This document shows positions 19,272-50,080 of a DNA stretch of 64,000 nucleotides, in pieces. Origin of the DNA: Oceanidesulfovibrio indonesiensis. GTDB lineage: Bacteria; Desulfobacterota; Desulfovibrionia; Desulfovibrionales; Desulfovibrionaceae. The stretch is from NCBI RefSeq assembly GCF_007625075.1, contig NZ_QMIE01000015.1:1-64000 (forward strand), given 5' to 3'. Both the position numbers and the translations under genes were made by a program. Within the stretch, counting starts at the first letter, position 1. Every line of letters starts with the position of its first letter. The notes below the pieces were generated by a model that searched no databases, was not told the DNA's origin, and saw only the letters and a program-made list of their open reading frames with translations.

Positions 19272-22200
19272 TTAGCTCAGGGTCGCGCCCAGCGAATGGA
19301 TGCGCGGGTAGATCAGCGGCGTGCCGGTCATCTCGGCTTTGTAGCGCACCTTGTTGCCGGTGTTGTCGGTGAAGGTGCGCACCAGGGTGTACTCGGTCCA
19401 GTTCTCGTCGATGGGCCGGGTGTCCTGGATGGTCATCGCCTCCCAGGTCAGGCCGCCGTCGTTGCTGGCGAACCATTGCAGGGTGGTGCCACTGGGGATC
19501 TGCATCTGCACATAGGCTTTGGTCGATTCCACACCCTGGGTCAGCTCGTTCTCGCGGGTCAGGTAGGCCCCGGTGGTCTTGTTGAGGTAGCCCACCAGGT
19601 TGACGTCGCGAAAGTTGATGGCCGGAGTGTCGTTGGAAAGCGAGCTGCTCAGGCGCACGCGGATCTGGACCCGGGTGGCGAGGTTGGGCAGCCGTTCCTC
19701 CTCGGCGGGAACCATGGCGTCCCAGGTCACGCCGCCGTCGGTGGAGTATTCCCAGTCGAGACCGGTACCCTGGGGGATGGCCGAGTATTCGTCGAGGTTG
19801 ATGTCGGAGAACTGCACGCCGGTGATCGGCTGAAAGCGAATCATCCCCTCGGACTGGAAGTTGTAGCCGTAGATCTTCATCGCCAGGTCGGAGCCGTTGA
19901 GCGGCGTCCAGGTCTCGGCGTTGGAGCTCTCCAGCAGCACGCCCTCCATGTAGGTCTGCCGGGTGATGATGCCCCAGCGGCCCATCTTGCCGAGGGTGGC
20001 GGTGCGGACCTTATAGTTGGTGCTGTTGGTCAGCAGCACCACGGCGTAGCTGGTGTTGGCCTCGGCGTAGAACGGGTCGTCGAAGCGAATGCGGGTCTCG
20101 CCGCTCAGGCTGATCTCGTTCGGGGCCAGCACCTTCTCGGCGAACACCACGCCGTTGGGCAGACCGGTGGTGACGCCGCGAATCTGCACCGTGACCGGAA
20201 TGCTCGGGTCCCTGGCGGTGAACTGCAGACCGATGCTGGAGATCACCTGGTTCTGGGTGAAGCTGAAGGTCTGGGCCAGCGGGTCGCGGGGCACGAAGAT
20301 GGTCTGAGTGCGCCAGACCACCTGCACCACGGGCACGCGAATGATGCGGTTCTCGATGATGCGCTCGATGCGGGTAATGACCAGCGGATCGTTGATCTGC
20401 AGGCTGGCCCGGGCCGAATAGACGCCGTCGGCCATCTCCACGATACGGTTGCCGTTGCGGGCGTTGGTCGGAATGGTGAAGGAGGCGCTGACCCGACCGG
20501 CCTCGTCGCTGATCAGGTTACTGGCCATTACCTGGCCGTCGCAGCGCAGCACGATGCCGGATTTGCTCGGGGTGAAGTTGATGCCGGTGACGGCGATGCC
20601 GGTCTGGCCGCGCCGCCCGAGGTTGGGCGTGATCTGCAGCATGGCCGGGGGCTTGTCGAACACCGCGTAGGGGTTGATGTTGCGCTCCTCGGACCAGTCG
20701 TTCTGTTCCACCAGCACGGTCTCGTTGCCCGGCAGCAGCGCCAGGCTGCCGAAGAAGCTCGCGCTGCTGCCCGCCTGATCGACCGAGAGCACCGTGGAGT
20801 GCGGAATGCGGTCCGGCGCGACGAAGCGGGCAATCTCGTTGACCCGGGCGTCCCATTCGGCGTGGTAGATGTCCGACTGGGCGGTGTTCGAGAAGTCGTC
20901 CGAGTAGATGCCTTTCTTGGTCTGGGCGTCCCGGTTCTGCAGCTCGTTGTTCATCTGGTACTGGGCGTCGTTGTACTTCAGGTCCTCGACGTCCTGGATG
21001 ATGTCGTGGATCTGGTCCATGGTGATGCGGGTCAGGCCGAAGTTGCGGATCTCCATGTCGGTGGAGTTGGGCGGGCAGTCGATGCTGCACAGCCCCAGGG
21101 CGTTTTCCGGCACGATGGGCAGCTTCGGGAAATCCGCCGGAGCCCCTTCCAGCCGCTTGATCTCGGTGGTGGTGGCGTTGCGGTCGTCGAGGGATTTCTG
21201 CAGTCGTTTGTAATCGGCGCTCTTGTCGGTCTTGCGGATGTAGGCGAGCTTTTCGAGGTACATCTGCTCCGCGTTTTCCGCCGTGGCCACCCGTGTGTCG
21301 ATGCCGAGCTGTTCGAGCTTTTCCAGCATCGCTTCGACCCGTCCTGGGGTGGCATCGCCATCCAGGATCATTTCCAGCTCGCCGCGTTGGGCATAGAGGT
21401 TGGTGTCCGACCAGGGACGATAGCGGACCCGGGTGCCGTCCTCGAAGGTGACGGTGTACTGGTGCCCGTCCTGCATGCGAGAGTTGTGATTGAACAGCGT
21501 CCGGTTGTCGATGTCGTCGGCCTCGACGGTGATGGTGCCGGAACCAATCCTGCGCTTGGTGTGAGTCACCTTGCCGCGTTCCACCTTGAACGGCGGTTTC
21601 TCCTTGGGTTTCTGCGCGTCGAGCTTGGGTAGGTACTGCTCGAAAACGCCGTTGGTGGCCCGGTCCCAGTCGACGGATTCTTCGATCTCCTTGACCCATT
21701 TCAGATAGTGGTCCGCCATCTCCTTGACCTTGGGGTCGGCGCTCTTTTGCAGGGTCTCCAGTTTCTTGCGCAGGCGCAGGGCCTTGTCGATCTTGGTCCG
21801 GTTGTACTTGCCGTCGCCCACGTGAAAGTTGACGTTTTTGACGGCGTCCAGAATCGTCGGAAAGAAGCTGTCTTCGACCAGCGGTTGTCCCTTTTCCCCG
21901 GCCGCCGTCTGCACATACCTGCGCAGCACCTCGTCGATGCGGCGGTCGGTGTCCGGCCGGATCTTCATCTTGACCACGGTGCGCTTCTTCCCCTTGAAAC
22001 TCTCGGTGAAGATCAGCGCGTTCTGGTCCTCCACGTCGCCGCTGTCGAAGGGCAGCGTCTTGCCTTGCCAGCCGAGTTTGCGGGCCTCCTCGACCAGGGT
22101 CTCTTCGGCGGAGGAGAGCAGCTTTTTCTTGCCGGTGGCGGTACTCAGCTTGTCGAAACGAAAGCCCCGATCCCCCAGCACATCGGCGTAATAGCCTTCG

Positions 22201-25001
22201 AAGTCTCGCCGGAGATTGTGTTTCCGCTCCAAGGCCAGATCATAGAAATGCCGCAGCCCGGCTGGGTCCTTGGAAAACCGTCCCTCCGCATAGGGCCGCA
22301 GCAGATCGAGGTAATCCTCGTCGGCGATCTTTTCGACTTCCTGGATGTAGCGAAGGGTCGCGTTCGGATCGACCCGTACCTTCCCTTCCTTGGCCGCCCG
22401 GAAGACCTTGTTGTAAAACGACTCTTCCTCGCCGCAGACGCCGTTGGGGTGATAGTCGAGCGAGAGCTTGTCCTGCCCCAGAAACTTGAAGGCCTGGCCT
22501 TTGTCGATGCCGTAGACGCGACCGTCCCGGGCGCGGATGAACTGCTTGGAATGTCCATCGTGGTTAGCGATCAGCCAGTCGACCACATGCTCGCGCTGGA
22601 TCTGCTCAAGTTCGATGGTGGTCAGATCCTGGGGCAGGATGTTGCGAAAATCGAAGTCGTCCCGCAGATCGGTGCGCCATTTCTGGATGGAGCCGGTGCG
22701 GCCATTCAACTGGATGGTGCGCACCTCGATGGAAAGGGGGTCAATCAGGCGACCGATCTTGTAGGCGGCTTCCTCTCCGAAGGCGATGAACTCATCGTCC
22801 TTGCGGCCAATGGGCTTGAACAGCCATTTGTCACCGTTCTCATCGGTCCAGAACTCCTTTTCATGTGCGCCGCCGACAGCGGCCTTGCCGGTTTTCTTGA
22901 ATTTTGACGGCAGACCTTTCTGCTGCCATGCGGTATCGACGGTGGTGAACTCCGCGCCTTTCTTGACGATCTTTGGCTCGGGCGGCTTGACCGGACTCGG
23001 TTGTGGAGCTGGTTTCGGCGTGGCTGGCTTGGCCGGTGCGGTTTTCTTCTTGCCGCCATGTTTTTCGGCCCAGGCGGCGTGCTTTGTGTCGATGCTGGCC
23101 TGAACCGCCTTGATTTTCGCGGGGTCGGTCTCGGTGAAGAGCGTGGTCAGCTCGTCTTTGTTGGCCCACTGCCAATACTGGACCTTGGTCTCCTTGGCGA
23201 GCGTCTTGAGCTCCGTCGATTTCAGCTTGCCGACCTGATCCTGGAAGAGCTGTTTCTTGAGGGCGATTTCCTTGCTGTGGGCCGCCAGCAGATCCTGGGG
23301 TAGATCGGTGCCAACGGAAACCGCCTGTTCCGCCTTGGCAATCGCGTCGAGGAAATCCTTGTAGCCGGTCGGCGTGTCGGGAACGACCACGGCCTTGGCG
23401 GCGTCTTCGAGAGCCGTTTTCTGTTTCAGGATCAGCTTTTGTTTGGCCTCGTCGACCGCCTTTTTCTTGACCGACTCGGCCATGTCGGCACCGGCCTTCT
23501 TCTGCAGCGCCTCGACGAGCTGCTGCTTGTTTTTGAGGATGCCGATGCCGTGCTTCTGTTTGGCCGCCGCGAGTTCCTTGCCCATCAGGCCGCTGTGATC
23601 CACGCCGGGCTCCAGCTTGTCGAGCAGCTCGATGGTCTCCTGTTTGGTCATATTGAGGGAGATGCCGTTCTCTTTCGCCATCTCCTTGAGCTGCTGGGCG
23701 GTCATGCCCTCCAGCCCCTCGGCGGGAGGGATCTTCGCCATCTGGGCGGCGAGCAGCTTGGCCTGTTTGAGTTCCGCCTGCTTCAGTCCGAGCAGATCGA
23801 CCAGTTCTTCCTTGGTCCGCAGCAGACCGATCTTGTGTTCCTTGAGCTTGGCGCTGAGCGCCGCTCCGGCCAGGTCGCCGTGATCGATCCCGGGTTCGGC
23901 CAGATCGAGCAGCTTGATGAAATCGGCCTTGGTCCGGGCGATGGCCACGCCGTTCTGTTTCGCCAGGGTCTGGAGCTGTTTGACCGTCAGCGAACCGAGG
24001 TCGGCGATGTCGCCGTTTTCAAAGGCGCTCTTGATCTTGGCGTTCTCCTTGGCCTGGGCGTCGGCCATGCCTTCCAGCACGTGGGGCGGGAGAATGCAGG
24101 CGTCCCCCTGCGATGCCTGGGCGGCTGCTTTGGCGGCCATCTCGCTACCGCAGACGGTCATCGGCCACGCCACGATATTGGTGCAGCGGCAGTGCGGATG
24201 CGCGGGTTGCTGGGGGAACTTGTCGATGGGAAAGGTCTTGCCGTCCAGCCCGCCGCAGACCGGGCACATGCGCTCGTCCTCCATGGCCAGCCATTCCAGC
24301 TTCTGGATGCCGACCCGCTCGTGGAACTTGAGCCTGCCCATGTTGTGGGCGCGGAGGACCTCGGTGCGGGCGATCATCTCCATGCGGTACTGAGCCTTGC
24401 TGAACACCCGGCTTCCGGCCTGGCGAAAGGAGTCCTTGTCGATGATCACCTTGCCCATGTCCCGGACGATGTCGTCGGCTCCCTTGCCCGTGGCGACGCC
24501 GTTCAGGATGGTGCGCTTGATGCCGTCTGCGAGTTCTCGGTGGACGTCACCGGCGAGCGTGAGGTTGTACTGCGCCATGAAGTCGAGGGCATTGGTGTCG
24601 ACGATGGTGAACACCTTGGTGGCCAGCTTGTCGATGCCCTCGGGCTTCAGGTCGGCGTAGAACGGCAGCGCCGCGTCGGCGAGCTCTCCGATTCCCTGCT
24701 GGATACCGAGCTTGAAGGAGTCCTTGGTCGTCTTGCGAAAGACCAGGGTCTGCTCCCGCTTGAGCCGCTTCATGGTGTCGTCGAGTTCGAGCTGGAGCTT
24801 TTCCAGCCCCTTGAGGGCGGCGAGCTTGTTGTCCGGCAGGGAGCCGAGGGAGCGGTACTGGAGGATGGCGCGGGCGACCTCGTCTTCGGCCTGTTTCAGG
24901 GCCTGGGTGAGCTGGGCCGTGACCTGGTCGTTGTAGCGGTTGCGGGCCGTCAGACTCTTCAGTGTGGCCGCCTGGATGCGCTGCTTGAGGTCCGACGGCA
25001 T
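19272..25001 (-). CDS. Giant fusion: Mu F-like head protein, SAP-like repeats, HipA-like kinase domain, DUF4815 tail segment
   Basis: One uninterrupted frame of 1909 residues. Residues ~1-280 form a Mu gpF/SPP1 gp7-type head morphogenesis domain ending in a metal-binding-like cluster (CPVCGGLDGKTF ... HPHCRC). Residues ~330-505 hold repeated SAP-like helical motifs (SLTVKQLQTLAKQNGV, GMTAQQLKEMAKENGI). Residues ~690-950 form a protein-kinase-like domain of the HipA/FAM20 sort (DWLIANHDGHSKQFI, GIDKGQAFKF), plausible as a MuF-linked effector. From about residue 1288 the protein is the C-terminal half of a DUF4815-type phage tail protein (PADFPKLPIVPENAL, YNDAQYQMNNEL, YTLVRTFTDNTG). The N-terminal half of that tail protein is absent. 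The gene directly follows the portal gene (1 base shared). The joining of head and tail proteins looks like an in-frame deletion or an assembly collapse. Confidence 0.8.
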   Translation of the reverse strand: MPSDLKQRIQAATLKSLTARNRYNDQVTAQLTQALKQAEDEVARAILQYRSLGSLPDNKLAALKGLEKLQLELDDTMKRLKREQTLVFRKTTKDSFKLGIQQGIGELADAALPFYADLKPEGIDKLATKVFTIVDTNALDFMAQYNLTLAGDVHRELADGIKRTILNGVATGKGADDIVRDMGKVIIDKDSFRQAGSRVFSKAQYRMEMIARTEVLRAHNMGRLKFHERVGIQKLEWLAMEDERMCPVCGGLDGKTFPIDKFPQQPAHPHCRCTNIVAWPMTVCGSEMAAKAAAQASQGDACILPPHVLEGMADAQAKENAKIKSAFENGDIADLGSLTVKQLQTLAKQNGVAIARTKADFIKLLDLAEPGIDHGDLAGAALSAKLKEHKIGLLRTKEELVDLLGLKQAELKQAKLLAAQMAKIPPAEGLEGMTAQQLKEMAKENGISLNMTKQETIELLDKLEPGVDHSGLMGKELAAAKQKHGIGILKNKQQLVEALQKKAGADMAESVKKKAVDEAKQKLILKQKTALEDAAKAVVVPDTPTGYKDFLDAIAKAEQAVSVGTDLPQDLLAAHSKEIALKKQLFQDQVGKLKSTELKTLAKETKVQYWQWANKDELTTLFTETDPAKIKAVQASIDTKHAAWAEKHGGKKKTAPAKPATPKPAPQPSPVKPPEPKIVKKGAEFTTVDTAWQQKGLPSKFKKTGKAAVGGAHEKEFWTDENGDKWLFKPIGRKDDEFIAFGEEAAYKIGRLIDPLSIEVRTIQLNGRTGSIQKWRTDLRDDFDFRNILPQDLTTIELEQIQREHVVDWLIANHDGHSKQFIRARDGRVYGIDKGQAFKFLGQDKLSLDYHPNGVCGEEESFYNKVFRAAKEGKVRVDPNATLRYIQEVEKIADEDYLDLLRPYAEGRFSKDPAGLRHFYDLALERKHNLRRDFEGYYADVLGDRGFRFDKLSTATGKKKLLSSAEETLVEEARKLGWQGKTLPFDSGDVEDQNALIFTESFKGKKRTVVKMKIRPDTDRRIDEVLRRYVQTAAGEKGQPLVEDSFFPTILDAVKNVNFHVGDGKYNRTKIDKALRLRKKLETLQKSADPKVKEMADHYLKWVKEIEESVDWDRATNGVFEQYLPKLDAQKPKEKPPFKVERGKVTHTKRRIGSGTITVEADDIDNRTLFNHNSRMQDGHQYTVTFEDGTRVRYRPWSDTNLYAQRGELEMILDGDATPGRVEAMLEKLEQLGIDTRVATAENAEQMYLEKLAYIRKTDKSADYKRLQKSLDDRNATTTEIKRLEGAPADFPKLPIVPENALGLCSIDCPPNSTDMEIRNFGLTRITMDQIHDIIQDVEDLKYNDAQYQMNNELQNRDAQTKKGIYSDDFSNTAQSDIYHAEWDARVNEIARFVAPDRIPHSTVLSVDQAGSSASFFGSLALLPGNETVLVEQNDWSEERNINPYAVFDKPPAMLQITPNLGRRGQTGIAVTGINFTPSKSGIVLRCDGQVMASNLISDEAGRVSASFTIPTNARNGNRIVEMADGVYSARASLQINDPLVITRIERIIENRIIRVPVVQVVWRTQTIFVPRDPLAQTFSFTQNQVISSIGLQFTARDPSIPVTVQIRGVTTGLPNGVVFAEKVLAPNEISLSGETRIRFDDPFYAEANTSYAVVLLTNSTNYKVRTATLGKMGRWGIITRQTYMEGVLLESSNAETWTPLNGSDLAMKIYGYNFQSEGMIRFQPITGVQFSDINLDEYSAIPQGTGLDWEYSTDGGVTWDAMVPAEEERLPNLATRVQIRVRLSSSLSNDTPAINFRDVNLVGYLNKTTGAYLTRENELTQGVESTKAYVQMQIPSGTTLQWFASNDGGLTWEAMTIQDTRPIDENWTEYTLVRTFTDNTGNKVRYKAEMTGTPLIYPRIHSLGATLS

Positions 25002-26672: not shown

Positions 26673-28196
26673 TCAGATGAAGACCGGATTGGTGAGCACC
26701 GGCTTGAGCGAGACCACCTCTTCGCCGACCGGGTCGAGGTTGCCTTCCTCCCGGATCAGCATGGCGCAGCGCACCGCGTCGATGATGTGGTCGTTGCCCT
26801 TGGAATAGATGATCTTGCCGTCCCGCAGGGTGTAGGTGTGGGTGGTGAACTGGTCTTCCACCTCCAGGTCGTCCGAGGGGAAAATGAGCTGCTTGCGCTG
26901 TAGAGCCCCGTTGATGAGGCTGGTCATCAGCTCCTTGGTCCGCTTCTTGATTTCCTTTCCGTCCCGCACCGCCAGCCGGGTCATGCCGCCGAAGTCGTAT
27001 CCCTTGAGCCTGCCTTCCAGCTCCAGCCCCTTGTACTTGTCCAGGGTGAGCAGCTCCTGAACCACGGCCAGGCCGTTGCCGCCGTTGTCCACGCCGATGC
27101 CCGCCGGGGTGTAGTAACGCTCCAGCAGCGCGATGATCTGGGCGATGTGCGGATAGGAAACGTGTTCGAGATGCACGCGCAGGATCATCTTCAGCAGCGT
27201 CCGCTCGCCGATCTCCATCTCCTGGAATACGACGATCTCGGTGGGATCGTTGGTGTAGCCCAGGTCGCCGCCGACCCAGAACTGCCCGCTGCGGGGCGTG
27301 AGGTTGAGCAGCATCTCCAGCCGGTCGTGGGCCGCTTCCTCGGTGTCGCAGTCGCGCAGCTCGGAATCGGTGATGACGATCTTCTGGTACTCCAGCAGAT
27401 CCTGCCGACAGAGGTTGAACTGCTCGACATTGAAGGCCCCATAGGAGGGCTTGCCGTGTTCACCGGCCACCTCGTGCTGCCAGCCGGAGCTGTCGCGGCC
27501 GCCGTAGAACTCCAGCAGTTCGGCCTCGCGATCCTCGGTCCACAGGGGGTTGAGCCAGGACGGCCAGCGGAACACATGGAACTGATCCGACGAGGTGAGC
27601 CGGTAATAGGTGGTGTCGCGCAGGCCGTTGGGCGTGGAGTAGATGCGTAGCGTCCCCCCGGCCTTGAGACACTGGCGCAGCGCCTTCCAGGCCCGTTCGG
27701 TCAGCCAGGCCCCTTCGTCGACCCAGACGCGGCCCACGTGCAGGGACCGGAAGGCGTCGCCATAAGCCCCGGCCGGGCGGAAATAGAGCACTGAACCATT
27801 GGTGAACTCCAGCCGGAAATAGGGTTTGCGGTGGATCTTGGGCTTGCCGTACTTGGTCAGAGCGATGCTGTTCATCAGATCCGGGTTGCTGTCGAGCTGG
27901 AACTCGATCTCCTCGATGATGGTGTCGAGGTGCCCCTGGTGCGGAGCCGCGATGAGGCCCTGGCCGCCTCGGGTGGTGAAGGCGTAATGGAGCGCGTCGG
28001 TCGAGAGCACGATGGACTTGCCCACGTCCCGGCCGTCGAGGTGGATGATGTTCTTGGCCGGGCAGCGCAGGTCCTCCACCTGGTGCAGCCAGTAGTCGCG
28101 GCCTGAGCCATCCCGGTTGTAGAGGTAGGCTTGCCCCCACAACACGGGATCGCTCAGGGTCGCCGCGAGTTTGCGCTCCTTGTCGGTTACCGCCAT
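26673..28196 (-). CDS. Terminase large subunit (TerL)
   Basis: 507 residues. The ATPase part has a Walker A-like motif (HLDGRDVGKSIVLS, near residue 55) and a Walker B (HVGRVWVDEGAWL, near 155) followed by the coupling motif TPNGLRDT. The C-terminal RNase H-like nuclease starts at WVGGDLGYTNDPTEIVVF (first Asp) and continues with VDNGGNGLAVVQ and HIIDAVRCAM. TerL pumps and cuts phage DNA at the portal. The order here (TerS-like gene upstream, portal downstream) fits, though recombinase genes on the other strand separate TerS from TerL. Confidence 0.93.
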   Translation of the reverse strand: MAVTDKERKLAATLSDPVLWGQAYLYNRDGSGRDYWLHQVEDLRCPAKNIIHLDGRDVGKSIVLSTDALHYAFTTRGGQGLIAAPHQGHLDTIIEEIEFQLDSNPDLMNSIALTKYGKPKIHRKPYFRLEFTNGSVLYFRPAGAYGDAFRSLHVGRVWVDEGAWLTERAWKALRQCLKAGGTLRIYSTPNGLRDTTYYRLTSSDQFHVFRWPSWLNPLWTEDREAELLEFYGGRDSSGWQHEVAGEHGKPSYGAFNVEQFNLCRQDLLEYQKIVITDSELRDCDTEEAAHDRLEMLLNLTPRSGQFWVGGDLGYTNDPTEIVVFQEMEIGERTLLKMILRVHLEHVSYPHIAQIIALLERYYTPAGIGVDNGGNGLAVVQELLTLDKYKGLELEGRLKGYDFGGMTRLAVRDGKEIKKRTKELMTSLINGALQRKQLIFPSDDLEVEDQFTTHTYTLRDGKIIYSKGNDHIIDAVRCAMLIREEGNLDPVGEEVVSLKPVLTNPVFI

Positions 28197-29111: not shown

Positions 29112-29486
29112 ATGACCGAATGCACAGTGCATCAAGCCGCCGAGGCTTTCATCGGCCACCTGCGGGAATCCGGAAAGAAAGAGCGGACCCTCTACACCTA
29201 CCGGAAGGACCTCGACGTGGTTGAGTCCTTCTTCGGCGGGGATCGCCAGCTCGCCGAGATCCGGCTTCCCCAGGTCGGCAAGTTCTACAAGTCCGACCTG
29301 CTGCTCAAACTCCCCGACGGCAAGGAGCGGGCTGAACGCACCATCGCCAAGACCGTCCGGGTGTTCCGCATGATGATGGTCTGGGCCAGGGAATCGGGGC
29401 GCATCGAGGAGCTGCCGCTGCCCAAGAGCACACCCATGGGCCACAGCCGGGTGAAGGAGTCCAGCGATGAGCAACCGAACGGCTGA
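29112..29486 (+). CDS. SAM-like N-terminal recombinase domain protein (no catalytic domain)
   Basis: 124 residues that look like the core-binding (SAM-like) domain of tyrosine recombinases: TVHQAAEAFIGHLRESGKKE, RTLYTYRKDLDVVESFFGG, FRMMMVWARESGRIEELPLP. The catalytic domain with its Arg/His/Tyr set is absent, so it cannot cut DNA alone. It overlaps the full recombinase gene downstream by 20 bases, so the two are made together. It may be a DNA-binding partner of the recombinase or the remnant of a second recombinase. Confidence 0.7.
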   Translation: MTECTVHQAAEAFIGHLRESGKKERTLYTYRKDLDVVESFFGGDRQLAEIRLPQVGKFYKSDLLLKLPDGKERAERTIAKTVRVFRMMMVWARESGRIEELPLPKSTPMGHSRVKESSDEQPNG

Positions 29487-30381
29487 CCTCGACCTGACGG
29501 CCGCGACAGAGGCGTTCTGTGCCAGCCTGTCGGCCGAAGGACGCTCCCCTGCGACCATAACCGCATACCGCCGGGACCTCGCCCTGGTGGCCCGCGTGGC
29601 CGGGGAGCTGGCCCCGGGCATCGTCTGCCGGGCGGTCACGGCCGGGCTCCTCGACCAGGTGTTCTCCGCCGGGGCGGTCATCGAGAGTGAGCGAGGCCCA
29701 CGCTCGGCGGCTTCGCTCCATCGGATGAATGCGGCGGTGCGGGCCTTTTTCGCCTGGGCTGTCGAGGCGGGCGTGGTCGATGACAATCCGTCCCGGTCAA
29801 TCCGCATGCATCGGCTGCCGAGAAAGCTGCCGGTGTTCCTGACTGCCGCCGAAAAGAAACGGCTCCTCAAGGAGCTCAAGGGGCGGACCGACTTCTCCGC
29901 GCTGCGCGACCGCGCCATGATCGAGGTGCTGCTGGGCACCGGGATCAGGCTTGGCGAGCTGGCCGCGCTCGACATGGATGACATCGACCTCGACGCCAAA
30001 CATCTGCGGGTGCGGGCCAAGGGGAATGTGCCGCAGGTCAAGTTCATCAAGACCGACCTCCGCACATTGCTTCGCCGTTACCTGGCCGAGCGCCGTCGAC
30101 ATGGCCGCCCGGAAATGGAAGCCCTGTTCCTGTCGAACCGGGACGGCAGACTCTGCCAGCGGCAGATTGCCAACCGGCTCGCCCACTGGCTGCGGAAGGC
30201 CGGGATCGAAAAGGAACTGACGCCGCATGGGCTGCGGCACACCTTCGCCACCCACCTCTACGGCGCGACCAACGACCTGCTCGTGGTGCAGCGGGCATTG
30301 GGGCATCGCGACGTGTCCACCACCCAGATCTACACCCACCTCGTGGACGGCCAGCTCGAGGAAGCCCTCGAACGCCTCTGA
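29467..30381 (+). CDS. Tyrosine recombinase / integrase (XerC/D-like)
   Basis: 304 residues. N-terminal SAM-like domain (ATEAFCASLSAEGRSPATIT), then the catalytic domain with all active-site positions visible: Arg in GTGIRLGELAAL, Lys in RAKGN, HGLRHTFATHL (His-x-x-Arg), GHRD (His) and the nucleophile Tyr in TTQIYTHL. Expected to perform site-specific strand exchange for integration, excision or dimer resolution. The coding strand is opposite to the terminase genes around it. A repeat array starts 200 bases downstream. Confidence 0.93.
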   Translation: MSNRTADLDLTAATEAFCASLSAEGRSPATITAYRRDLALVARVAGELAPGIVCRAVTAGLLDQVFSAGAVIESERGPRSAASLHRMNAAVRAFFAWAVEAGVVDDNPSRSIRMHRLPRKLPVFLTAAEKKRLLKELKGRTDFSALRDRAMIEVLLGTGIRLGELAALDMDDIDLDAKHLRVRAKGNVPQVKFIKTDLRTLLRRYLAERRRHGRPEMEALFLSNRDGRLCQRQIANRLAHWLRKAGIEKELTPHGLRHTFATHLYGATNDLLVVQRALGHRDVSTTQIYTHLVDGQLEEALERL

Positions 30382-30401
30382 TCCTTCCTGACCCGACGAT
30401 G

Positions 30402-30431
30402 GGAGCGGCCTGGGCTGCTCCTGTTTTCGTT
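30402..30431 (+). terminator. Possible terminator after the recombinase
   Basis: GGAGC (30402-30406) can pair with GCTCC (30417-30421), followed by TGTTTTCGTT. It lies 21 bases after the recombinase stop. Short stem, so modest confidence. Confidence 0.4.
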
Positions 30432-30582
30432 GGGCGAGACAGTGTCGAAGACAGTGAATGACAGTGCCCGCAGAAGAACACATCCGCCGATGATGAATGA
30501 TCATGACGATAGGTCTCAGCCTCCCGGGCGGAGCGGGAAATATCGATTGACCGGAATTTCTCCTTCGCTGTCTGTCGGCTGC

Positions 30583-30821
30583 ACATGGCTATAACTGCTT
30601 GGCTTATGCGCTCCGGGCGCGGAACACACATGGCAATATCCGCTTGGCTTATGCGGTGGCTGCTGGCGAAGGAATGGCTGTTTGCGGGGCTTGGCCGGTT
30701 CTGCCTGGGGCTCGACATGCCCATATTTACTTGGGTTCTGTGAGAGAGCTTCGGCGTGAACATGCCAATATCTACTTGGGTTATGCGGCTCGGCTTATGC
30801 GCACACATGCCAAGCGGATAT
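30583..30821. repeat. Array of four 28-bp repeats plus inverted half copy (candidate recombinase sites)
   Basis: Four related 28-base units at 30583-30610, 30628-30655, 30715-30742 and 30760-30787 follow the pattern ACATG-S-C-W-ATAT..., CTTGG-S-TTATGCG. Spacing start to start is 45, 87 and 45. An extra GGCTTATGCG lies at 30792-30801. An inverted piece, GCCAAGCGGATAT at 30809-30821, is the exact reverse complement of 30636-30648 in unit 2. The array fills the gene-free stretch between the tyrosine recombinase and the TerS-like gene. Likely arm- or core-type binding sites for the recombinase; not a CRISPR because units are close, unequal in spacing and partly inverted. Confidence 0.75.
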
Positions 30822-30981
30822 CGAGAGCTGCAGGAAGAAATCGAGGAGTGGGAATGATGATCAGCAGCCGGAGAATGCCGATTCCGAAAGTGCAAGGAAC
30901 ACGTCTTATCCGCAATTCCTGGTGAAGCTGTCTGCCGCAAGTCGCCGTGTGCCGGGGTCATCGGAAAAGCCCTCCATGGTG

Positions 30982-31482
30982 TTATCCGCAATTCTTTCCG
31001 CGTTTCTTGCGGCCGGAGGTTTTCGTGGCCGGAGCATTGGCGGCCTCAGCCACCTTCTCGAGCAGAGCCGCCGCCCATTCCGCCGGAGAGGTCTGGGGAC
31101 CTTGCGGCTCCTCACCCTCGCGGGCGATCTTGGTGGTCTTGAGATCCTTCATATGGCAGCGGATCATCCGGTCGAGGCTCTCGGCCGCTTGGGTGTTCCC
31201 TTCGATCTGGGCACGGACCAGCTTGACGGAGTAGACGCCCACCAGTTCGACCTGAAGGAAGTCACTGGACTTGTTGAACACGAAGTCCTGGTTGAGGCGC
31301 TCGATGATCACGTCGAACATGACCTTCTCTTCCGGGGTCAGGCAGCGGTCGGCGAAGATGCCGTGCGTAAGCCGATACTGGTTGCCCTCGGGTGCTCCGG
31401 CCCCGCGCTTGGGCGGTTCGGTCTTGCCCTCGTTGCGATGCCAACGGTCCAGAATAGCTTTGTCGGGCTTGCTCAAAGGCAT
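30982..31482 (-). CDS. Terminase small subunit-like phage protein
   Basis: 166 residues with a basic, flexible N-terminus (GAGAPEGNQYRLTHGIFADR), which is common in small terminase-type proteins, then a helical core (EEKVMFDVIIERLNQDFVFN, SLDRMIRCHMKDLKTTKIAR) and a Lys-rich tail. TerS proteins bind the packaging site and load TerL. It follows the HTH gene at 31573 and its promoter-like motif, and lies upstream of TerL with the recombinase module in between. Assignment is from composition and context. Confidence 0.6.
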   Translation of the reverse strand: MPLSKPDKAILDRWHRNEGKTEPPKRGAGAPEGNQYRLTHGIFADRCLTPEEKVMFDVIIERLNQDFVFNKSSDFLQVELVGVYSVKLVRAQIEGNTQAAESLDRMIRCHMKDLKTTKIAREGEEPQGPQTSPAEWAAALLEKVAEAANAPATKTSGRKKRGKNCG

Positions 31483-46778: not shown

Positions 46779-47303
46779 ATGAATGAGTTACAGAACGCCG
46801 CCACGGGCGGCAAGAATCAGGACCGAACCCGAAACTCGGTTCTTCGGCAGATGGCCCTGCTGCAATCCATGTCCCTGGAGCAGCTCCGGGAAAAATGGCT
46901 CGACCTCTACGGCGAAGAGCCGCCCCAGTACAAAAAGCAATTCCTCATCAAGCGGCTGGCTTATCGCATCCAGGAGCTTTTCTACGGCGGGCTGTCCGAG
47001 CAGGCCAAGGTCCATCTCCAGCAGGCCGCCAAGGAGGACCCGGTAGCCACTGTCAATCGACGCATCCCAGAAGAGCGGAAATCGAACGAGGCGCTCCTGC
47101 CCGGGACCAGACTGGTGCGGGTCTGGAACGACCGGCGCTATGAGGTGATCGTCCTTGCCGATGGCTATGAGTTCGAAGGCCGCACCTTCCGGTCGCTCAG
47201 CGCGGTGGCCAGGGAGATCACCGGGACGCGCTGGAACGGCAAGGTCTTTTTCGGGCTGAAGAAGGTTTACGGCAGAAAAGCCGAGGGAGGTTCGGATGCT
47301 TGA
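46779..47303 (+). CDS. DUF2924 family protein
   Basis: 174 residues from the ATG at 46779 (ribosome site AAGGAG). Typical DUF2924 blocks: LREKWLDLYGEEPPQYKKQF, LIKRLAYRIQELFYGGLSEQ, LLPGTRLVRVWNDRRYEVIV and FRSLSAVAREITGTRWNGKV. The C-terminal part is a small DNA-interaction-like domain. The family nearly always precedes a large serine recombinase, as here (8-base overlap), and may act as a recombination accessory factor. Confidence 0.9.
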   Translation: MNELQNAATGGKNQDRTRNSVLRQMALLQSMSLEQLREKWLDLYGEEPPQYKKQFLIKRLAYRIQELFYGGLSEQAKVHLQQAAKEDPVATVNRRIPEERKSNEALLPGTRLVRVWNDRRYEVIVLADGYEFEGRTFRSLSAVAREITGTRWNGKVFFGLKKVYGRKAEGGSDA

Positions 47304-48882
47304 TAACAGCAATGTCGCGCCGGGCAAGAACAAGACCCTGCGCTGTGCCATCTACACCCGCAAGAGCCACGAGGAAGGTCTCGAACAGGAGTTCAACTCG
47401 TTGGATGCCCAACGGGAATCGGCGGAACACTATATCGAAGCTCAGAGGATGCGGGGCTGGACGGCTCTGCCGGATCGCTATGACGATGGTGGTTTCTCGG
47501 GCGGGAACATGGAGCGTCCGGGGCTGCGCCGCCTGCTGGCGGACATCGACGCCGGGAAGATCGATGTGATCGTCGTCTACAAGGTCGACCGGCTGTCCCG
47601 CTCGCTGCTGGACTTCATGAAGATGATCGACCTCTTCAACGAGAAGGGTGTCAGCTTCGTCTCGGTCACCCAGCACTTCAGCACCACCGATCCCACCGGC
47701 CGAATGTTTCTCGGTATCCTGATCACCTTCGCCCAGTACGAGCGGGAGGTCATCGCCGAACGCATCCGGGACAAGGTGGCGGCAGCCAAGCGCCGGGGGA
47801 AATACTGCGGCGGCGTACCCATCCTCGGATACGACGTCGACAGGGACAACAAGAAGCTGCTGGTCAACCCAGATGAAGCCAGGACGGTGCAGTACATCTT
47901 CCGCCGCTTCATCCAGATCGGCTCGGCCAAGAAGCTGGGCCAGGAATTGAACGAACAGGGATACCGCACCAAGGCCTGGACCACCAAGAAAGGCAAGGTG
48001 CGTGAGGGCTCCGAATGGAACACCGCCCACATCTACCGGCTGCTCAATAACCGGATCTATATCGGCGAGATCGCCCACAAGGACCGCAGCTACCCCGGTG
48101 AGCACGAAGGGATCATCGACCGGGCGACCTGGGACAAGGTTCAGGCCATCCTGGAGGACAACAAACCGGTCAAGGTTTCCATGGCCAGAACCAAAATGGT
48201 CGCCCCACTGAAAGGCGTCATTCGCTGCGGCCACTGCGGATGCGCGATGGGACCGACCTACGCCCGCAAGAACGGCCGCCACTACACCTATTACATCTGC
48301 CAGAAGGACAGCAAGCGGACCTTGAGCCGGTGTCCGCTCAAACGGATTCCCGCCGGGGACATCGAGCAGGCGGTGATCGAGCAGTTGAGCGCGGTGTTCC
48401 GCACACCGACGCTGGTGGCCAAAACCTACTTCGCGGCCCGGGACATCGAGCAGGTGGAGCGGGAGCGGCTGTTCAAGCAGAAAGCCCAACTCGAGATGGA
48501 GCTGTCGCAGGCGCGGGAGCAGGCACTCGAACTGATGAAGCCCGGCAGCGATCAGCCGGGCAAGGCAGAGATGCTGACGACCGTCAACCGCCAGGCGGTC
48601 GAGCTCTCGAAACAACTGACGCACGTGAGCGAGCGATGCAGAGCCTACCGGGGGAACAGCATCACGGAACAGGATGTATCGGAGGCCTTCCAGAATGTCG
48701 AAGGCTTCTGGGAAGACCTTTTCCCGGTGGAGCGAAACCGGCTCATCCGCCTCCTGGTGGATAAGGTCGAGATCCGCGAGACCGGGATCGACATGGAGCT
48801 GCGCACCAACGGGCTGACAACGCTCATCGCCGAGCTGGCCGGTCTGGCATGCGAAGTCACCGAACGGAGGGCAAGCCGATGA
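47296..48882 (+). CDS. Large serine recombinase
   Basis: 528 residues. Resolvase domain with the nucleophile Ser in CAIYTRKSHEEG, DAQRESAEHYI, VYKVDRLSRSLLDFM and FGMFLGI-type segment (GRMFLGILITFAQYEREVIA). Then the recombinase domain (LNNRIYIGEIAHKDRSYPGE), a zinc ribbon (IRCGHCGCAMGP ... YYICQKDS ... CPLKRIP) and a coiled coil. It should integrate or excise an element by double-strand cleavage and rotation. It lies 840 bases from the 3' end of the tmRNA gene. Confidence 0.95.
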   Translation: MLDNSNVAPGKNKTLRCAIYTRKSHEEGLEQEFNSLDAQRESAEHYIEAQRMRGWTALPDRYDDGGFSGGNMERPGLRRLLADIDAGKIDVIVVYKVDRLSRSLLDFMKMIDLFNEKGVSFVSVTQHFSTTDPTGRMFLGILITFAQYEREVIAERIRDKVAAAKRRGKYCGGVPILGYDVDRDNKKLLVNPDEARTVQYIFRRFIQIGSAKKLGQELNEQGYRTKAWTTKKGKVREGSEWNTAHIYRLLNNRIYIGEIAHKDRSYPGEHEGIIDRATWDKVQAILEDNKPVKVSMARTKMVAPLKGVIRCGHCGCAMGPTYARKNGRHYTYYICQKDSKRTLSRCPLKRIPAGDIEQAVIEQLSAVFRTPTLVAKTYFAARDIEQVERERLFKQKAQLEMELSQAREQALELMKPGSDQPGKAEMLTTVNRQAVELSKQLTHVSERCRAYRGNSITEQDVSEAFQNVEGFWEDLFPVERNRLIRLLVDKVEIRETGIDMELRTNGLTTLIAELAGLACEVTERRASR

Positions 48883-49720: not shown

Positions 49721-50080
49721 TGGTGGAGGCGGGGGGAGTCGAACCCCCGTCCGAGAATGTTCCACAGTGAGCGTCTACAGGTATAGTCCGTGGTTTGGTC
49801 TCATCGCGGCGGCGCCCACGAACAGGCTCCATCCGCGACCAGTTTGCCAAAGTGTCTCACCCCCGCCGTGGCGAACGCCGGCGGGAGCCAGCCCGATAAG
49901 GGTGTCATTCCGAATGCGTATCAGGCGTCAGCTTCCGGAATGTGGCAGCGTTAGTTACGCAGCCAGAGCGTAATCGTAGTCGTTGTTGGCAACTATCGGT
50001 TTGCCGCTTTTTTACGAGGCCAGCGGCGCCTCGACCTGCAACTCCTGCTTCCGCATCCCCGTCGAAACCAGTGCGCCCCC
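49721..50080 (-). ncRNA. ssrA: tmRNA
   Basis: Transfer-messenger RNA of about 360 nt that rescues stalled ribosomes. The 5' end GGGGGCGCACTGGTTTCGAC and 3' end TTCGACTCCCCCCGCCTCCA(CCA) form the tRNA-like acceptor and T-arm. The resume frame at 49990-49955 encodes the tag ANNDYDYALAA followed by TAA, the type known from Desulfovibrio. The mature 3' CCA is encoded. The gene reads leftward towards the phage-derived block, whose recombinase cassette ends 420 bases away. Confidence 0.97.

Follow-up and report, generated by a model that had tools for sequence, protein, structure and literature searches.

Phage P1 carries a single loxP site near its packaging start, at which Cre circularizes terminally redundant DNA and resolves dimers. 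loxP has two arms only, separated by an 8-bp spacer, and the P1 prophage is a plasmid. Host chromosomes use Xer enzymes of the same recombinase family at sites with 11-12-bp arms (XerCD/dif, XerS/difSL, XerH/difH), with a 6-bp central region in dif (PMC5357621). Each of the two XerCD enzymes recognizes one arm, XerS is a single recombinase encoded beside its site, and the available part of that article mentions no third arm at a fixed distance. TnpI of the transposons Tn4430 and Tn5401 is a tyrosine recombinase that resolves multimers at irs, a two-arm core with two further direct-repeat arms (PMC7157771). It serves transposon cointegrate resolution from a site upstream of its gene, and the accessible portion of that source mentions no core-binding-domain partner. 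Tyrovirus gp50 is a Xer-like tyrosine recombinase encoded among the structural genes of large Bacillus phages, between the neck and tape-measure genes (PMC9703825). A putative attP is described, an 11-6-11 inverted repeat lies directly after the gp50 stop codon, and the function of the protein was left open; the sections of the study available to us mention neither a third arm nor a partner protein.

We analyzed a 64,000-nucleotide stretch of the Oceanidesulfovibrio indonesiensis genome (the window), which contains a related locus among phage genes, as judged by domain and phrog profile matches. On the minus strand are the gene for the terminase large subunit (TerL, 26673-28196; PF17289, PF03237; phrog_2, E 1e-29) and a terminase small subunit (TerS)-like gene (30982-31482), whose label rests on weak profile matches (phrog_1889, E 0.0039 in the window and 0.0004 in the best relative, the L015 orthologue). 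Between them, on the plus strand, are a tyrosine recombinase gene (29467-30381) and a gene for a partner protein (29112-29486). A gap of 600 bp (30382-30981) separates the recombinase from the TerS-like gene. The strands, the gap, and the position between the terminase genes are as an earlier, sequence-only reading of this DNA had described them. That reading also took the module to split the terminase genes, as if inserted there, and here the comparison of relatives says otherwise. A TerL search returned 79 loci, and the 54 with more than 1.8 kb of upstream sequence were used for a gene-order count. In 52 of these 54 loci, at TerL identities of 39-97%, TerL has the recombinase immediately upstream on the other strand; of the exceptions, L166 is cut short by the end of its contig and L189 has retained the partner alone. 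Because this order is shared down to 39% TerL identity, the sequence comparison indicates that the recombinase pair is no recent insertion and that its position is ancestral to the phage lineage.

Several other features of these loci were recorded. In L062 and L063, roughly 1 kb of sequence interrupts TerL after about residue 76, possibly an intron, an intein, or an inserted gene (L195 is the same contig as L062). Microcystis phage MACPNOA1 (L202) has an annotated XerD-like recombinase at 143-1240, near the start of a gene run with a TerL-like protein of 28% identity; this arrangement hints at a wider link between recombinase and terminase. Nearly the same phage, with recombinases 95-97% identical, occurs at L002-L009; its recorded hosts, several Desulfobacterota and a gammaproteobacterium, Ectothiorhodospira shaposhnikovii, span a very broad range. 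In the window, one ORF of 1909 residues (19272-25001) fuses a Mu F-like head protein to a DUF4815 tail-type protein. Its similarity to a relative ends at about 21162, as if an in-frame deletion had removed capsid and tail genes, and the window prophage is probably defective.

The recombinase is a Xer-like simple tyrosine recombinase (PF00589, E 9e-43) with a SAM-like domain at residues 16-101, a catalytic domain at residues 124-293, and nothing else. The N-terminal arm-binding domain that characterizes lambda-type integrases was absent in the domain search. The catalytic R-K-H-R-H/W-Y set that, together with this simple architecture, defines Xer-type enzymes is complete: R161, K185, H254, R257, H280, and Y289 are the same in all 32 aligned members. 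XerC is the best family model (E 3e-66), followed by XerD, although the scores are under the equivalog cut-offs of both (223.7 of 335 for XerC and 207.5 of 330 for XerD). The closest solved relative is XerD.

The 124-residue partner is a stand-alone tyrosine-recombinase core-binding (SAM-like) domain without a catalytic domain, and on this point the domain searches agree with the sequence-only reading. Its family aligns with the N-terminal domain of the recombinase (hhalign probability 99.1), and 18 of its 25 members match Phage_int_SAM_1. A structural model (pLDDT 87.9) has recombinase N-terminal or core-binding domains as its top fold matches, none with E below 0.001. This catalytic-domain-less relative is conserved at 61% mean column identity over the 25 members and therefore probably serves a genuine function. 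Of the 54 TerL loci, 47 have a separate partner, which is missing at L178, L182, L183, L192, L193, L198, and L199. Since L182, L183, and L198 nonetheless have a clear copy of the site described below, the role of the partner is not general.

Comparison of the gap among relatives revealed a three-part candidate site at 30888-30993 on the plus strand. Its core (30888-30917) is a 12-6-12 inverted repeat consisting of a left arm, AAGTGCAAGGAA (30888-30899), an asymmetric 6-bp spacer, CACGTC (30900-30905), and a right arm, TTATCCGCAATT (30906-30917). The core thus has the two inverted 11-12-bp arms and 6-8-bp central region of Xer-type sites, although in the window its arms match at just 7 of 12 positions. 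A third arm, TTATCCGCAATT (30982-30993), lies 76 bp further along and repeats the right arm exactly and in the same orientation; its first three bases are the stop codon of the TerS-like gene. When 51 distinct gaps were scanned with the arm distance left free, the third arm lay at 75-76 bp in 47 and at 66 bp in 3; L178 was the one gap in which it was not found. In L179 and L180, whose recombinases are 37-40% identical, the arms differ in sequence (AAATGCGAC...) and the third lies at 65 bp. The 65-66 bp class totals five loci and differs from the 75-76 bp class by about one helical turn. The gap scans gave no clear site in L178, L192, L193, or L199, and a palindrome only in L186 and L191.

The arms change together across lineages. 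Among nine chosen lineage representatives, left and right arms match at 9.1 of 12 positions, compared with 7.8 when arms are shuffled between lineages (p 0.0006), and right and third arms match at 10.4 compared with 9.1 (p 0.0003). In 11 of 12 gaps, none of 300 shuffles reached the three-part score of the real site; in L160 another palindrome scored higher, and the L160 arms are still 75 bp apart. The core does not vary at any of its 30 columns among seven close relatives. All 12 spacers seen are asymmetric, and the arm pair at 76 bp occurs once in each of six records. The core occurs once in the window and once in those stretches of a second prophage (G002) that were scanned, with no further copy in either.

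Conserved elements near the TerS stop codon could instead mark where packaging starts (a pac or cos site) or serve as a shared terminator of transcription. Either would fit their location where the TerS-like gene ends (3') and the hairpins that some lineages have between the core and the third arm. We consider this distinctly unlikely. A terminator does not need a third arm that copies and covaries with a core arm at a fixed distance, and Xer sites have this same arm-spacer-arm form (PMC5357621), here found beside a Xer-like enzyme. The arm architecture and covariation point to 30888-30993 as the place where the recombinase probably works.

This candidate site combines features of the known systems. 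It shares its enzyme family and arm length with the Xer sites, its 6-bp spacing with dif, and the proximity of a single recombinase with XerS/difSL; unlike those chromosomal systems, it belongs to a phage and has a third arm (PMC5357621). A two-arm core with a direct-repeat accessory arm, beside a tyrosine recombinase gene, recalls the architecture of TnpI/irs, but here there is one direct repeat, the site follows the gene, and a core-binding-domain partner is present (PMC7157771). The 6-bp-spaced inverted repeat and its place recall the repeat behind gp50, although gp50 is encoded elsewhere in the phage genome and not between terminase genes (PMC9703825). In the parts of the literature available to us on Xer, the Tn3 family, Tyrovirus gp50, and tyrosine recombinase classification (PMC8138268), we found no description of a three-arm phage site.

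The remainder of the gap contains further elements. A G+C-rich hairpin followed by a T-rich stretch (30401-30429, plus strand), read from the sequence, is the probable terminator of the recombinase gene. Three direct GACAGTG repeats (30438-30466, plus strand) are well conserved in close relatives, with 5 of 75 columns variable in the surrounding block (30431-30505), and the pattern was found only in 8 phage contigs, all of the same group. An A+T-rich inverted repeat, GGGAAATATCGATTGACCGGAATTTCTCC (30535-30563), is variable at 3 of 30 columns in close relatives and adjoins the core in several other lineages. In L007, the gap carries a 75-bp hairpin-rich insert exactly at the edge of this A+T-rich palindrome.

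A further element is a direct-repeat array (30582-30821, plus strand) with four units of 28-29 bp, one incomplete unit, and an inverted copy that forms a 6-bp-spaced palindrome. The units start at 30582, 30627, 30714, and 30759, in steps of 45, 87, and 45 bp, and units 2-4 are 90, 69, and 79% identical to the first. The partial copy at 30773 is 69% identical, and the inverted pair (30636-30653 and 30804-30821) matches at 89% over 18 bp, 13 bp of it exact. A repeat search thus reproduced the four 28-base units and the 13-base exact inverted copy from which the sequence-only reading had started. Scanning the whole window with one unit gave scores of 25-27 of 28 for array copies and 21 for one degenerate copy; the best score outside the array was 18, the level of shuffled sequence. 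Zero-mismatch matches to CTTGGSTTATGCG in the 4.29 Mb genome were confined to the array.

That reading suggested that the array may be the recombinase's own site, perhaps a switch that inverts or inserts DNA; an entry site for cassettes would be of this kind. Several observations fit. The search it had suggested, for the repeat beside homologous recombinases in other DNA, succeeded: the motif occurs in 8 contigs of a viral collection, all 8 of them recombinase loci by contig name, and the group-2 palindrome occurs in 16 contigs, 15 of which are recombinase loci by the same measure. Palindromes with 6-bp spacing are present in the array and in its group-2 counterpart, and in a group about 70% identical other TTATGCG elements, with such palindromes, are also spaced 45 bp apart, so that the unit step recurs in both groups. 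Genes have also entered the gap in L013, L014, L049, and L059. The weight of evidence nevertheless makes a working site in the array very unlikely. Array columns vary among close relatives at the average rate (35 of 240), in contrast to the invariant core, and TTATGCG does not track the shift of the core arms from TTATCCGCA in group 1 to TTATCTGAA in group 2. Copy number differs by whole units among close relatives, whose gaps are 606, 474, and 429 bp long. Lineages with recombinases about 53-66% identical keep the three-part site and lack the array, which was not seen by eye in any of 24 deeper-lineage gaps. The scan revealed no second array that could serve as a recombination partner. Because its copy number varies and most deeper lineages are without it, the array is at most accessory; it may be an accessory binding array, or a leftover or incidental feature. 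The expectation of arm- and core-type sites was partly borne out, in that the gap past the recombinase holds a core-type site and further repeats, but the core begins about 70 bp past the array, and the conserved, covarying site is the one outside it.

The regular steps of the array could also be codon repeats of a decaying or tiny gene, which the sequence-only reading had named as the outcome that would overturn its proposal. Changes within 30570-30870 are unevenly distributed over the three phases (20/8/22), and in the best plus-strand frame 20 of 50 changes are synonymous where 12.9 are expected (p 0.021, uncorrected over six frames). One minus-strand frame is open in both groups. The best frame, however, is interrupted by stops, and in other relatives its end is lost (frames were read in 17 sequences). 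We regard this weak signal as an unlikely sign of coding.

The genes that entered the gap did so beside the core. The L013 gap contains a Fic/Doc toxin gene and a nuclease-like gene; the reading frame upstream of Fic/Doc, which had no family match, we take to be MazE-like. A Fic/Doc gene is also present in the L014 gap, a nuclease-like gene is present in that of L049 and a putative one in that of L059, and the nuclease genes of L049 and L013 (1738-2526) are MTES_1575-like. The left core arm is changed in L013, L049, and L059, and the inserts of L049 and L059 replace this arm rather than the array, which is further evidence against the array as an entry site. The nuclease-like genes of L013, L049, and L059 start between the core and the third arm, as if the site were a homing target. 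Toxin-antitoxin genes may adjoin the TnpI/irs site as well, as in L013 (PMC7157771). Two candidate lines of evidence were set aside. As candidate products of recombination at the core, L013 and L061 share a right half in different backgrounds, but the swapped tracts are short and ordinary homologous recombination suffices to explain them. In L014, a recombinase fragment lies next to selB-like sequence and appears to be a remnant or a chimeric assembly.

We examined how the prophage is integrated. A large serine recombinase (47296-48882, plus strand; PF00239, PF07508, PF13408), the probable prophage integrase, adjoins ssrA, the tmRNA gene (49721-50080, minus strand) and probable attachment site. 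Phage homology ends inside the 3' end of ssrA, with similarity to close relatives stopping at 49732-49763. Of 14 records from relatives, 12 gave a match to the serine recombinase, as did 8 of 18 deeper records, many of which are fragments. Among fetched right ends, ARAGORN found a tmRNA in L101, L102, and L103 and none in L098, L099, L100, L104, L105, or L106; direct observation of the ssrA site thus covers the window and three relatives. A 12-mer search for attL against the ssrA side gave three matches, all of them away from where the left end of the window prophage was expected. Gene order runs TerL-partner-recombinase-gap-TerS without interruption in 12 of the 15 genome-assembly loci in which most of the recombinase is present (L002-L016); the remainder are the insert in L013, the fragment in L014, and a contig edge in L016. 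A prophage integrated in the lambda manner would be split at the site beside its recombinase. Because the serine recombinase adjoins ssrA and 12 of 15 loci show no split in the gap, the tyrosine recombinase is probably not the chromosomal integrase of this prophage, and the serine recombinase probably is. The array was also rejected as a chromosomal attachment site, on the evidence weighed here and above.

Phage integrases often adjoin attP, and the tyrosine recombinase might be, or have been, a second phage integrase whose attP in other hosts or lineages is the core. The direct repeats (GACAGTG and the array) look like arm sites, and no serine recombinase was seen in 10 of the 18 deeper records; in these, the tyrosine enzyme could be the integrase. 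Against this, the enzyme is Xer-like and has no arm-binding domain, the unsplit prophages weaken the idea, and records without the serine gene may be fragments. We judge an integrase role improbable.

Our preferred reading, to which we assign a probability of about 0.6, is that the recombinase and its partner form a phage Xer/Cre-like system that acts at a directional three-part site to resolve or circularize phage DNA. The gene order, the Xer-like enzyme with all its catalytic residues, the site architecture, the covariation, the single copy, and the separate serine integrase were each computed directly. From these we infer binding, strand exchange, resolution or circularization, headful packaging with terminal redundancy, and the roles of the partner, the third arm, and the array. 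The recombinase-partner system would be a fixed part of the packaging region in this phage lineage. Strand exchange would occur at the 6-bp spacer between the two inverted 12-bp arms, and the third arm, at its distance of 75-76 bp or, in some lineages, 65-66 bp, would give the synaptic complex its shape. With one site per genome, exchange would join two genome copies or both ends of a terminally redundant molecule. Dimers, concatemers, or linear DNA that has just been injected would in this way become unit circles, ahead of integration at ssrA by the serine recombinase.

The sequence-only reading had instead envisaged a switch that inverts or inserts DNA. An invertible switch has two inverted site copies flanking the DNA between them, and the window and the scanned parts of the G002 prophage each have one core; insertion into the chromosome probably falls to the serine recombinase at ssrA. 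A single directional site allows no inversion or excision within one genome copy, whereas dimer or concatemer resolution, or circularization, is feasible. One site per prophage and asymmetric spacers thus favor resolution or circularization over a switch. The resulting scheme resembles P1 Cre/loxP, in which a phage recombinase also has a single site at the packaging region, but differs in that this prophage is probably integrated by a serine recombinase. A more specific version is tentative: a two-protein Xer-like system coupled to packaging, in which the partner or a recombinase dimer might hold the third arm at the TerS stop codon and make exchange one-way, leaving lysogeny to the serine integrase, in a widespread and mostly undescribed phage lineage.

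A directional three-arm site used by a single enzyme, with natural arm and spacer variants, would be a potential source of orthogonal recombination tools. For the phages themselves, the locus offers a defined site and a two-protein system with which to explain why a Xer-like recombinase may be kept among structural or packaging genes despite the presence of another integrase, a question like the one that the Tyrovirus authors left open for gp50 (PMC9703825).
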